From contig JAFWEW010000005.1 in NCBI GenBank assembly GCA_017512725.1, forward strand, positions 1 to 36,883: a DNA stretch of 36,883 nt, written 5' to 3'. Source of the DNA: Solobacterium sp. GTDB lineage: Bacteria > Bacillota_I > Bacilli_A > Erysipelotrichales > Erysipelotrichaceae. A program made the translations under genes and the position numbers. Shown one piece after another: positions 186 to 26,615 of the stretch; positions within the stretch are counted from its first letter, which is position 1; each line of letters opens with the position of its first letter. Below the pieces are notes generated by a model, which was given only the letters and a program-made list of their open reading frames with translations, did not search any database and was not told the origin of the DNA.

Positions 186-710
186 TCAGTCTGCGTTTTT
201 GAATACGTCTTTATTCTTAATGAAGTATTCAATACCGGAGTATACCGTTGTCGCAACGATGACCACAACACACAGGGTATTCAGCCATGCCGGAATATTG
301 AGCATCATCAGGCAGAGACAGACCATGGTGGAAGCGGTCTTTACTTTGCCGGACCAGGCAGCCGCAATGACTTTGCCCTGTTCGACTGCGACAAGACGCA
401 TGCCGGAAACGGCGAACTCTCTCAGAAGCACGATTGCCAGCGCCCATCCCGGCATCTGACCGTTTTCTACGAACCAGCACATTGCCGACATTACCAGGAT
501 CTTGTCAGCCAGGGGATCCATGAATTTGCCGAAGTTGGTGATCTGGTTGTAGTGCCGTGCAATATAGCCGTCCAGCAGATCCGTCAGGGAGGCAATAATG
601 AAGATCGCAAGCGCTACATAGTTACTGTTGGGAAATCCCGCATAAAGTACGCCAAGGAATACCGGTACCAGTATGATTCTCAGAATAGTCAGTTTATTAG
701 CAGTCGTCAT
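186..710 (-). CDS. pgsA: CDP-diacylglycerol--glycerol-3-phosphate 3-phosphatidyltransferase
   Basis: Makes phosphatidylglycerophosphate from CDP-diacylglycerol and glycerol-3-phosphate, the committed step to phosphatidylglycerol and cardiolipin, in the cytoplasmic membrane. The 174-aa product is normal length for the family. It carries the complete CDP-alcohol phosphatidyltransferase signature D-x2-D-G-x2-A-R-x8-G-x3-D-x3-D as Asp44, Asp47, Gly48, Ala51, Arg52, Gly61, Asp65 and Asp69. Hydrophobic segments flank the motif and continue to the C-terminus (MLNIPAWLNTLCVVVIVATT). The ATG has an AGGAG about 11 nt upstream. It ends before two stacked terminators. It uses the same substrate, glycerol-3-phosphate, as the glp operon upstream, but a ferredoxin gene separates them and co-transcription is not shown. 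Confidence 0.93.
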   Translation of the reverse strand: MTTANKLTILRIILVPVFLGVLYAGFPNSNYVALAIFIIASLTDLLDGYIARHYNQITNFGKFMDPLADKILVMSAMCWFVENGQMPGWALAIVLLREFAVSGMRLVAVEQGKVIAAAWSGKVKTASTMVCLCLMMLNIPAWLNTLCVVVIVATTVYSGIEYFIKNKDVFKNAD

Positions 711-772: not shown

Positions 773-1018
773 TTACCCTTCGCTGCTGATTGCATCAAAT
801 ACACAGTCATTCACGCATTTGCCGCACAGGAAACATTCATCCTGATTGATATGGTAATCACTGCCGTCATACGTAATAGCCCCGGCCGGACAGATGGTGG
901 TGCAGTATCCGCACCTGGCGCATTTCCACTGGTCAATGTACGGAAATCCGCCGTAGTATCCGCCTGCGGCCTGTTTCAGCTGATTATCATCCAGTTTGGT
1001 ATTATTTTTGTTCTCCAT
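773..1018 (-). CDS. Small 2[4Fe-4S] ferredoxin with a double-glycine leader-like N-terminus
   Basis: An 81-aa protein. Its C-terminal ~50 residues form a classic bacterial dicluster ferredoxin: CARCGYCTTICPAG gives C-x2-C-x2-C-x3-C-P, and CFLCGKCVNDCVF gives C-x2-C-x2-C-x3-C without the usual Pro. The first 20 residues are not ferredoxin-like. Leu9, Leu14, Ala17-Ala18 and Gly19-Gly20 (LDDNQLKQAAGG) match the spacing of double-glycine bacteriocin/peptide leaders (hydrophobic at -12, -7 and -4, GG at -2/-1). A second GG follows at 23-24. The start is firm: GGAGG lies 7 nt before the ATG. A likely own promoter is listed separately. Electron transfer is a family inference. Whether the leader is cleaved, or recognised by an exporter or maturase, is unknown, and no C39 peptidase/ABC gene is in the window. 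Confidence 0.85.
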   Translation of the reverse strand: MENKNNTKLDDNQLKQAAGGYYGGFPYIDQWKCARCGYCTTICPAGAITYDGSDYHINQDECFLCGKCVNDCVFDAISSEG

Positions 1019-1081
1019 GTGATTATCCTCCGTTATCTTTCGATACGACGCATCATTCCCGATGCCGTTCCCTTACATATC

Positions 1082-1109
1082 ATTATACGGAACGGATAAC
1101 CGGTTTCCA
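1082..1109 (-). promoter_or_regulatory. Candidate promoter of the ferredoxin gene
   Basis: On the minus strand a consensus TATAAT (plus-strand 1082-1087) is preceded at 16 nt by TGGAAA (1104-1109), a weak -35. It is about 65 nt upstream of the ferredoxin ATG, in a gap with no other gene, downstream of the glp terminator. Confidence 0.5.
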
Positions 1110-1197
1110 TGCTTTAAAACCCGGGGTAACTTTGCATGCGAACTCCGTTTTTATCAAACGGATTCCGTCACATCTCTAAGCGTTCTTCAATCCCAAA

Positions 1198-1231
1198 GGA
1201 AAAGGACCACCGCTTATGCAGTGATCCCTTT
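1198..1231 (-). terminator. Terminator of the glp operon
   Basis: Arms 1201-1213 and 1218-1231 pair over 13 bp, with wobbles and one bulged G, around a 4-nt loop. Transcribed on the minus strand the stem is followed by TTTTCCTTT. It lies 14 nt past the DUF1667 stop codon and closes the glycerol operon. Confidence 0.7.
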
Positions 1232-1244
1232 ATTTCCGTCTGAA

Positions 1245-1604
1245 TCAGTCAACGTTTCTTGTCGCAACGACATTCACGCCGGTACCGAGTACGTTGTCAA
1301 TGATGACATCGCCGATCTTAACCGGTGCTTTGACACGCACCGCATCGATCGCCTTCATGCATTCACTGATCTTGTCCTTCGGAATATTGCCTGCTGTCTT
1401 GACGGAGCAGCGGGGCTTGTCACCGCCGTCCACTACTACAGTGGAGGTAACGGTGCGTTCCGGATGAGTGACTTCATTGCGTGCATAGTTATCGCCGATC
1501 GGGCAGGTATTGCCCTTTACGGAAAGAACTTCACCTTCCTCGAGTTCAACGGTGATCTGGCAGCCCATCGGGCAGCCAATGCATGTTAATTCTCTTTTTT
1601 CCAT
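1245..1604 (-). CDS. DUF1667 family protein of the glycerol-3-phosphate operon
   Basis: A 119-aa protein with an N-terminal cysteine cluster CIGCPMGC (Cys8, Cys11, Cys15) and a further CPIG near residue 35, followed by VTHPERTVTSTV. This is the pattern of DUF1667, a small cysteine-rich family found next to GlpA-like and GlpB-like FAD dehydrogenases. The cysteines suggest an iron-sulfur or other metal site, which is inference. By position it is likely a third subunit or electron-transfer partner of the two upstream oxidoreductases. It starts 2 nt after the upstream stop codon, so translation is coupled. It is the last gene before the operon terminator. Confidence 0.85.
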   Translation of the reverse strand: MEKRELTCIGCPMGCQITVELEEGEVLSVKGNTCPIGDNYARNEVTHPERTVTSTVVVDGGDKPRCSVKTAGNIPKDKISECMKAIDAVRVKAPVKIGDVIIDNVLGTGVNVVATRNVD

Positions 1605-24843: not shown

Positions 24844-24978
24844 TTAAGCAGAGAGAACTTTTCTTCCCTTAGCTCTGCGTCTTGCCAAGACCTTACGACC
24901 GCCGACTGTGCTCATGCGAGCTCTGAAGCCGTGGTTTGCTTTGTGTTTTCTCTTACTCGGCTGGTATGTTCGTTTCAT
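24844..24978 (-). CDS. rpmH: Large-subunit ribosomal protein L34
   Basis: A 44-aa, highly basic protein, standard length for bL34, with the invariant start [20 protein letters not shown] and ending [14 protein letters not shown]. It binds 23S rRNA in the 50S subunit. The start is the ATG at 24978. A GGGAGG lies about 8 nt upstream, and an out-of-frame ATG 4 nt earlier is ignored. It is the first gene of the rpmH-rnpA-yidC-jag transcript and has a near-consensus promoter. Confidence 0.97.
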
Positions 24979-25018
24979 TCATGCCACCTCCCGTCATTTT
25001 TTGAACAATCGCTTATAT

Positions 25019-25047
25019 ATAATACGAGCGGAGAGATGGCTTGTCAA
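25019..25047 (-). promoter_or_regulatory. Near-consensus promoter of rpmH
   Basis: On the minus strand TTGACA (plus-strand 25042-25047) and TATTAT (25019-25024) are separated by exactly 17 nt. It lies about 40 nt upstream of the rpmH start codon and suits a highly expressed ribosomal protein gene. Confidence 0.85.
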
Positions 25048-25102
25048 TGCGGAATTCAAGGGATTTTTCCGTTATGAATATTTCATTCAAGGAGGAATCA
25101 TA

Positions 25103-25492
25103 ATGACAGAACCAAAGAAAGACCGGAGACTGCACCTGTCTACTTCGTTAACAGTGCAGTTCTGTATTGCGGCAAGTGTGATTGCCCTGCTTCTTTCTTA
25201 TGCATACTTTGTCGGAGAACGGGAAAAGCTGATTGAAATGAACGCAAGCACCGAAGTGTTCCGGAATTTCAATGTGGAACAGCTGGATGGATCGACTTAT
25301 ACCTCGGACCAGCTGAAACAGTCAAAGCTCACCGTTCTGAATGTATGGGAGACGACCTGTCCTTCCTGTATCGGGGAATTCCCGGATCTCCCTGTATGTA
25401 TTCGGACTGCTTACGGCATTCAGTGTATTCTTCGGCCGTCTGGTCTGCGGGTGGATGTGCCCGTTCGGACTGGTACAGGACCTGCTTTATAA
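25103..25492 (+). CDS. Truncated TlpA/ResA-like thioredoxin, run into a foreign frame
   Basis: The 129-aa frame has a sound start: GGAGG 7 nt before the ATG. It has an N-terminal membrane anchor (residues ~15-37) and then the opening of a TlpA/ResA-type redoxin: VFRNFNVEQLDGSTYT and VLNVWETTCPSCIGEFPDL with the redox-active CPSC (Cys86, Cys89). After residue 96 it no longer resembles a thioredoxin. The last 33 residues are an off-frame reading of the downstream polyferredoxin gene. A full TlpA domain needs ~100 more residues, so the fold cannot be complete. I infer a deletion that joined this gene to the next one. Confidence 0.75.
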   Translation: MTEPKKDRRLHLSTSLTVQFCIAASVIALLLSYAYFVGEREKLIEMNASTEVFRNFNVEQLDGSTYTSDQLKQSKLTVLNVWETTCPSCIGEFPDLPVCIRTAYGIQCILRPSGLRVDVPVRTGTGPAL

Positions 25493-26615
25493 AATCAAAA
25501 CAAAGTTCAAGAAAAAGAATCTCCCGGGGCATAAATACCTCCGCTGGATCCGCTTTGTCATATTGATCGTATTTGTGGTGTTACTGCCGGCGTTTGCGGT
25601 CAATGCGGCCGGTATGGGAAAGCCAACGTTCTGTGAATTCATCTGCCCGAGCGGAATGCTGCTGGGCGGGATCCCTCTGACTACTGTCAGTGATACCTTC
25701 CGTTCTGCCATTGGTCTGCGCTTCTGGTGGAAGCTGTTCATTCTTGTGGCGGTTGCGGTATTGTCCGTATTCTTCTACCGCCCCTTCTGCAAGTACCTCT
25801 GTCCTTTAGGCGCAATCTACGGCCTCTTCAATCCGGTATCCACCTACCGTCTGGAAATCGACCATGACAAATGCATCAAGTGTCATGCATGTCAGAACGC
25901 CTGCGGAATGGATATCGCCACGTTTGAAACACCGAACAGTATCGACTGTATCCGCTGCGGTGCCTGTATCAAAGCCTGCCCGAACAATGCGATCACGTCG
26001 ACCTGGACAACCGCCCGCAATAAGATGGTAACCCGCTGCTTCAGGGATGATATGGCGCCGGTCACAGATACAGCTTCTGCAGAAACAGCTCCTTCCAAGG
26101 CATATGTCTGGCTGTTTGTCCTTGGAATGCTTGTGCTTGGAGGAGTCGGATGTTACATGAGCCTTCTGTTCCTGACCCAGCTGTACCGTATCGTTCTGGT
26201 GAATAACGCAGAGATGTCCATGAACGCACTTCCGTTCATGGGAATCAAGCTGTGTGCTTCCTTAATTCTTGTCGTGACTGCCGTTGTTGCCGGTCTTTCG
26301 GTTAAGAATCCCGAGCGGCTTGCGGCCAGTGCCGAAAAAACAAAGATTGCCCTGTTCATTCATATCCTTGCGATCGTCGTGCTGATTATTGGAATGATTC
26401 TGGATTCTTCGTGCATCGGTATCATGATAACGCCGCTGTTTGCCTATCCGGCAGCCATGTTTGTATATCTGCTTGCGCATGGACTTGCGGTATCCTTCCG
26501 CAATCTCGTTCTCCAGAAGAAAGGCGCAAAGGCTGCGTTTATCACCTGTCTTCTGCTGATTGTTCTGGGATTTGCAGGGAATGCGGTTTATCTTCATATG
26601 ATGCTTTCCATGTAA
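25341..26615 (+). CDS. NapH/NosR-like 4Fe-4S polyferredoxin membrane protein, N-terminus missing
   Basis: The homologous part starts near 25386 (RISLYVFGLLTAF). It contains three C-x3-CP motifs (CGWMCPFG, CEFICPSG, CKYLCPLGA) and two cytoplasmic [4Fe-4S] ferredoxin motifs (CIKCHACQNACGMDI, CIRCGACIKACPNNAI), between several membrane helices. A further ~190-residue C-terminal part adds about five helices. The family passes electrons across or along the membrane to reductases or thiol-redox systems. Its usual ~60-residue N-terminus is absent. The open frame starts at 25341 inside the tlpA-like gene in a different phase, with no ribosome site. It may be a relic, or may be translated by coupling. 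TlpA plus this protein is a frequent gene pair. Confidence 0.8.
   Translation: MYGRRPVLPVSGNSRISLYVFGLLTAFSVFFGRLVCGWMCPFGLVQDLLYKIKTKFKKKNLPGHKYLRWIRFVILIVFVVLLPAFAVNAAGMGKPTFCEFICPSGMLLGGIPLTTVSDTFRSAIGLRFWWKLFILVAVAVLSVFFYRPFCKYLCPLGAIYGLFNPVSTYRLEIDHDKCIKCHACQNACGMDIATFETPNSIDCIRCGACIKACPNNAITSTWTTARNKMVTRCFRDDMAPVTDTASAETAPSKAYVWLFVLGMLVLGGVGCYMSLLFLTQLYRIVLVNNAEMSMNALPFMGIKLCASLILVVTAVVAGLSVKNPERLAASAEKTKIALFIHILAIVVLIIGMILDSSCIGIMITPLFAYPAAMFVYLLAHGLAVSFRNLVLQKKGAKAAFITCLLLIVLGFAGNAVYLHMMLSM

Follow-up and report, generated by a model that had tools for sequence, protein, structure and literature searches.

Double-glycine leaders are known from short bacteriocins, pheromones and RiPP precursors, and ferredoxins are otherwise cytoplasmic. 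In the stretch of Solobacterium DNA analysed here (36,883 nucleotides, the window), an initial annotation had described such a leader directly fused to a complete electron-transfer protein, a 2[4Fe-4S] ferredoxin with all eight cysteines. This raises the question of whether the leader is genuine and, if so, what becomes of the ferredoxin. A promoter motif, the insertion site and a candidate exporter encoded in trans tie the ferredoxin to leader-bearing small proteins found across the genus, and, judged from sequence comparison, the gene probably encodes a secreted ferredoxin that is cut after Gly20 and exported.

The ferredoxin gene and its surroundings

The open reading frame starts with ATG behind a strong ribosome-binding site and translates to MENKNNTKLDDNQLKQAAGG followed by YYGGFPYIDQWKCARCGYCTTICPAGAITYDGSDYHINQDECFLCGKCVNDCVFDAISSEG. 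The features of the locus are, in window coordinates:

773 to 1018, minus strand: double-glycine-leader ferredoxin gene, 81 amino acids (open reading frame and translation; Fer4 matches)
959 to 1018, minus strand: leader, residues 1-20, MENKNNTKLDDNQLKQAAGG, with predicted cut after Gly20 (genus leader profile 18.9, null below 1e-5)
776 to 958, minus strand: predicted mature protein, residues 21-81, a 2[4Fe-4S] ferredoxin (Pfam Fer4 families)
1027 to 1031, minus strand: ribosome-binding site GGAGG, 8 nt before the ATG (sequence)
1084 to 1110, minus strand: promoter motif RTGGA-N16-CGTATR, common to other double-glycine genes (motif search)
754 to 1199, no strand: insert of about 446 bp between the terminator of the upstream operon and the pgsA promoter (comparison with congeners)
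1200 to 1231, minus strand: terminator-like hairpin of the upstream operon (14-bp stem, -19.7 kcal/mol, T-rich 3' arm)
1245 to 1604, minus strand: DUF1667 protein, left flank of the insertion site and anchor for the comparison with congeners (PF07892, E 3e-35)
186 to 710, minus strand: CDP-alcohol phosphatidyltransferase (pgsA-like), right flank of the insertion site (PF01066, E 4e-45)

The CxxCxxCxxxC spacing is present twice with all eight cysteines (33/36/39/43 and 62/65/68/72), Fer4 families match the reading frame with E values of about 1e-9, and the solved structures of two clostridial-type ferredoxins can be aligned to it, 1fca over residues 27-76 and 1clf over residues 32-76. By these features the body of the protein is a complete eight-cysteine 2[4Fe-4S] ferredoxin with predicted cluster binding, and the fusion described in the initial annotation is borne out. 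An AlphaFold single-sequence model was uninformative, with a pLDDT of 46 and a weak helix at residues 11-17 as its sole feature. The leader is directly followed by YYGG. The protein does not have the characters of a class IIa bacteriocin: there is no YGNGV box and the core is a ferredoxin, not a two-Cys core.

The hairpin at 1200-1231, which a consensus terminator scan did not flag, ends the upstream operon, and the ferredoxin gene has a promoter-like sequence of its own; the gene therefore does not just belong to the cluster next to it.

The leader compared with other leaders of the genus

The leader ends in LDDNQLKQAAGG, with leucine at -12 and -7, alanine at -4 and Gly-Gly at -2/-1. It thus combines the double glycine with hydrophobic residues at -4, -7 and -12, although alanine is only weakly hydrophobic. 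Alanine at -4 occurs once in 71 leaders of the genus and the same is true for glutamine at -8: the spacing reported in the initial annotation is right, but to call the pattern 'exactly' that of a double-glycine leader was slightly generous. The C39 peptidase LahT, according to published work (PMC6363468), needs Leu-7 and a suitable residue at -12, is indifferent to position -3, accepts replacement of Glu-8 and Glu-5 and works with Thr at -4; Leu-12, Leu-7 and the double glycine are key leader residues for LahT and PCAT1 (PMC6363468, PMC6959990). Since Glu-8 can be replaced and Thr works at -4, the two departures of the ferredoxin leader (Gln-8 and Ala-4) fall where LahT accepts change at least in part; alanine at -4 is not among the LahT substitutions described in the passages of PMC6363468 drawn on here.

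The curated TIGR01847 (bacteriocin_sig), NHLP and Nif11 models did not report the leader, either with the leader alone or, for TIGR01847, in a genome scan, and its sole NCBIfam match was NF038153, below threshold (E 0.015). TIGR03793 and TIGR03798 did not match: at 20 residues, this is not the long nitrile-hydratase-like or Nif11-like leader of the NHLP/Nif11 group.

A first profile, built from 15 leaders of the own genome over 15 positions that included the poorly conserved -15 and -14, gave the ferredoxin leader a score of 6.7, at the noise edge (p about 0.002 per protein). It was replaced by a profile of 71 leaders collected from the genus, with the ferredoxin excluded. On this genus profile the ferredoxin leader scored 14.4 over 14 positions (p about 1e-5) and 18.9 over the 13 positions that are sufficient for LahT, a value that no shuffled N-terminus out of 104,000 attained; among the N-termini of 527 long open reading frames, the highest score with the 13-position profile was -0.4. 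Twelve double-glycine leaders that had been found by promoter or locus and not by their leader, a comparison set free of leader selection, scored between 3.3 and 23.6, and only three of them lie above the ferredoxin.

A promoter motif common to double-glycine genes

The motif RTGGA-N16-CGTATR is similar to ECF-type promoters. It was noticed by eye in about nine genes, the ferredoxin gene among them, and subsequently tested on the remaining genes; k-mer enrichment with a small, automatically compiled gene set gave too weak a signal. In its strict form the motif occurs 31 times in the whole genome, versus once for a reversed control. At least 14 of the 31 strict sites precede a double-glycine open reading frame, several of which were missed by every leader search, so that the motif brings up double-glycine genes beyond the reach of leader models. 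Of 77 double-glycine genes, 30 have a looser form of the motif in the 400 bp before them, versus a background of 0.016 per 400 bp; a few of the 77 genes had served to spot the motif, and the background was taken from loci at large rather than from a random sample. In front of the ferredoxin gene, the strict motif lies at 1084-1110 (minus strand), 92 bp from the ATG. No other match occurs in the 36.9-kb window, in which 0.07 are expected, and this evidence is independent of the ferredoxin's leader.

The insertion site between DUF1667 and pgsA

In the nearest sibling genome (G010), in which the proteins flanking this site are 97-99% identical, the gap between the DUF1667 gene and the pgsA-like gene is 95 bp long and consists only of the terminator and the pgsA promoter. 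The own genome (G000) has about 446 bp inserted between these two elements that are absent from G010, and the ferredoxin gene lies there. The same gap is empty in G043, G109, G004 and G015; it holds two tandem double-glycine peptides in G049 and G007 (those of G049 are MLKNQMKLDEKLLENIWGG... and MKNFEKLSDSILSDIWGG...) and two other double-glycine peptides in G001 (MKNLNKMKLDEELLTFVNGG... and ...EHKLSEENDSKVNGG...). The leaders at this site begin with KLD or KLS, resembling the KLDDNQL of the ferredoxin. Because the gap is occupied differently in G049, G007 and G001 and is empty in G010 and the four other genomes, it is, as far as the comparison of congeners goes, a site where double-glycine genes come and go, with the ferredoxin gene being one of them. 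In G028, the gap holds an unrelated long open reading frame (389 amino acids from the first ATG) that lacks a double-glycine leader, so the gap takes other cargo too.

An exporter and a sigma factor encoded in trans

C39/ABC genes are found at two places in the own genome, one on contig 45 and the other on contig 12, and in both cases a gene for a second ABC protein comes next. The contig-45 protein scores as an NHLM exporter (TIGR03796, 923 bits versus a cut-off of 853), and its peptidase domain matches LahT (6mpz) over the full length with an E value of 9e-71. The catalytic triad Cys27, His101 and Asp117 is intact and the -4 pocket residue Ile137 is kept as well, so that this genome has a C39 exporter that is predicted to be active. 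Its operon consists of an ECF-type sigma factor (TIGR02937, Sigma70 regions 2 and 4; L041, 7833-8363), a short HlyD-like protein, both directly upstream of the exporter, the C39 exporter itself and the second ABC subunit; the exporter has a TIGR03797-like partner and a short TIGR03794-like protein. A similar sigma factor gene is found near the same exporter in G007, G049 and G003. From its position and the type of the motif, we infer that this sigma factor drives the RTGGA-N16-CGTATR promoters, including that of the ferredoxin gene; the sigma operon itself does not have the motif.

The initial annotation had noted the absence of a nearby exporter and left the partner of the leader open. There is indeed no exporter beside the gene, but the contig-45 exporter with its intact LahT-like peptidase is a plausible candidate for an in-trans partner of the ferredoxin leader. 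Double-glycine leaders and C39 exporters co-occur in the genus: C39 exporters are present in 19 of 70 congeners, and double-glycine leaders were found in 16 of these 19 versus 4 of the 51 others (p = 1.5e-9). No modifying enzyme was seen beside the ferredoxin gene or in the neighbourhood of the contig-45 exporter.

The C39/ABC protein on contig 12 (L042, 9020-11203; contig 12, region of 126028) has a degenerate peptidase with Asn in place of Cys27 and Tyr in place of His101. In all nine genomes examined, Cys27 is replaced by Asn and His101 by Tyr, Cys or Asn, while Asp117 is kept. This conserved dead C39 domain adjoins an NHLM-type ABC partner.

Leader-bearing relatives and known systems

The initial annotation had proposed a search of related genomes for [4Fe-4S] domains behind double-glycine leaders, and no second case came up in the 70 congeners. 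A leader-bearing orthologue of the ferredoxin was also not found in 392 Bacillota genomes, plasmids, viral contigs and genome contigs, nor among the first-look candidates scored from the class to which L028, labelled Lachnospiraceae, belongs (391 genomes). For the broad searches the query had been given a consensus leader and matches were reported at E values of 1e-11 or lower, a setting at which a diverged case could be missed. Searches of open-licence papers for a double-glycine leader together with a ferredoxin, a zinc ribbon or an ECF sigma factor turned up no account of such an arrangement.

The closest known systems are those of C39 peptidases (class II bacteriocins, PCAT1/CtA, LahT, ComA/ComC), which have the leader of about 20 residues with Leu-12, Leu-7 and the double glycine in common with the ferredoxin, and the in-trans C39 peptidase matches LahT. 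In contrast to them, the protein studied here has a complete 2[4Fe-4S] ferredoxin as its cargo and a leader with neither Glu-8 nor a large residue at -4, and the genes are scattered instead of lying beside the exporter. NHLP/Nif11 precursors with the NHLM exporter (Haft et al. 2010, PMC2887384) are alike in having a TIGR03796 exporter and in that precursors may be far from it; there, however, the leader is enzyme-like and the core a short hypervariable peptide, whereas here a short leader precedes a ferredoxin. Clostridial-type ferredoxins such as 1fca and 1clf have the same eight cysteines in the same spacing and, after removal of the leader, a similar length, but they lack the 20-residue leader, and in the window's protein the second CxxCxxCxxxC is not followed by Pro (CVF). 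Pectocins M1 and M2 are plant-type ferredoxins fused to a colicin M-like killing domain, occur in Gram-negative bacteria and have no double-glycine leader. They are known as ferredoxin-containing bacteriocins (PMC3302902, PMC4671253) and resemble the protein studied here in that a ferredoxin domain is part of a protein released to act on other cells, but they are not its relatives.

Possible fates of the ferredoxin

The initial annotation had offered export, trimming or delivery to a maturase. Trimming combined with export is the best supported of these. The ECF sigma factor would activate the RTGGA-N16-CGTATR promoters, the leader helix would dock on the C39 domain through Leu-7 and Leu-12, and after the cut behind Gly20 the 61-residue body would be exported, probably as apoprotein in the unfolded state; passage through an ABC exporter may not be open to a ferredoxin that is folded and loaded with clusters. 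Outside, in an anoxic habitat, the body could bind Fe-S clusters or metal; that it leaves already loaded is less likely. The external job is the least certain step: it may lie in competition or signalling, in line with the roles of other double-glycine products, or the protein may act as a redox or metal-binding protein. If export holds true, C39 exporters carry ready-made metal and redox proteins in addition to peptides, and whether an anaerobe has ferredoxin outside its cells becomes a question that can be tested. Against export stand the failure to find a leader-bearing orthologue, the rarity of Ala-4 in the genus, the lack of recognition by TIGR01847 and the absence of the motif from the sigma operon.

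Several of these points would also fit an ordinary cytoplasmic ferredoxin with an N-terminal extension that looks like a leader by coincidence: the searches gave no leader-bearing orthologue, Ala at -4 and Gln at -8 are atypical, the smaller first profile placed the leader at the noise edge and TIGR01847 did not recognise it. The larger genus profile, however, puts the null below 1e-5, the gene has the common promoter motif, expected 0.07 times in the whole window, and it occupies an insertion site used by other double-glycine genes. Because the leader profile, the common promoter and the common insertion site are three separate and mutually independent lines, we consider a chance resemblance unlikely and the double-glycine reading of the initial annotation well founded.

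If the leader is genuine, its removal does not necessarily follow. Dead C39 domains can serve as docking domains, and the contig-12 transporter, with Asn for the catalytic Cys (kept in 9 of 9 genomes) and Tyr for His, might bind the leader or export the protein uncleaved, leaving the leader on. We regard this as improbable, given that the genome also has the exporter with the intact LahT-like peptidase, which is the one next to the ECF sigma factor, and that the ferredoxin keeps the double glycine at the cleavage site. RiPP enzymes, too, make use of such leaders, the exporter genes have NHLM/NHLP transporter scores, and LahT processes lanthipeptide-type precursors (PMC6363468); the leader could accordingly deliver the protein to a modifying enzyme, with the ferredoxin fold as a modified or decoy core. 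As no such enzyme was seen beside the ferredoxin gene or in the neighbourhood of the contig-45 exporter, and the ferredoxin body is complete, its cysteines all spaced for cluster binding, delivery to a maturase seems quite unlikely, and cleavage after Gly20 with export remains the preferred reading.

Other double-glycine proteins of the genus

The own genome encodes about 30 small double-glycine open reading frames. Many of their bodies contain CxxC pairs of the zinc-ribbon type, some of which are scored by Pfam zinc-ribbon models, and others look helical or SH3-like by eye. The part of the leaders before the double glycine resembles TIGR01847 leaders. More than 80 double-glycine proteins are at hand from the genus, and no iron-sulfur body other than that of the ferredoxin was seen in them. 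It is conceivable, if rather speculative, that these about 30 small proteins, put under the control of the ECF sigma factor and exported by the C39 exporter, many of them metal-binding, form an extracellular metal or redox protein repertoire of this anaerobe, in which the ferredoxin would serve as a secreted electron carrier or as a weapon that mimics ferredoxin.

Zinc-ribbon-like double-glycine proteins are encoded on seven contigs of the own genome (1, 11, 14, 20, 21, 36 and 37); one example reads MENKKPEAIEEKEMEEVSGG up to the double glycine and continues with GFPPLTYVCQRCGCRVSPAQWNETGGYCRE. A family of short double-glycine peptides, seen at nine loci, has the C-terminal motif GKxxPGxNxDI(F/L) in common, and its members are candidate bacteriocins or signals. 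Two proteins (contig 40, 1-357, and contig 12, 94868) have two double-glycine motifs each, one near the N-terminus and the second after a helical stretch like IPxEVxxKLxxAxSxxExxRILAENGI; this second, post-helix motif also occurs with a zinc-ribbon-like body at two further loci. Two adjacent double-glycine proteins that are SH3-like by eye are encoded on contig 12 (10.8-11.2 kb; L045, 1486-2080), and G032 has a near-identical pair. At 24908-26615 of the window, a reading frame for a thioredoxin-like protein (NVWETTCPSC) passes, with a change of frame near 25340-25490, into one for a membrane 4Fe-4S protein (Fer4_5), possibly a frameshift or a deletion that joins two redox genes.
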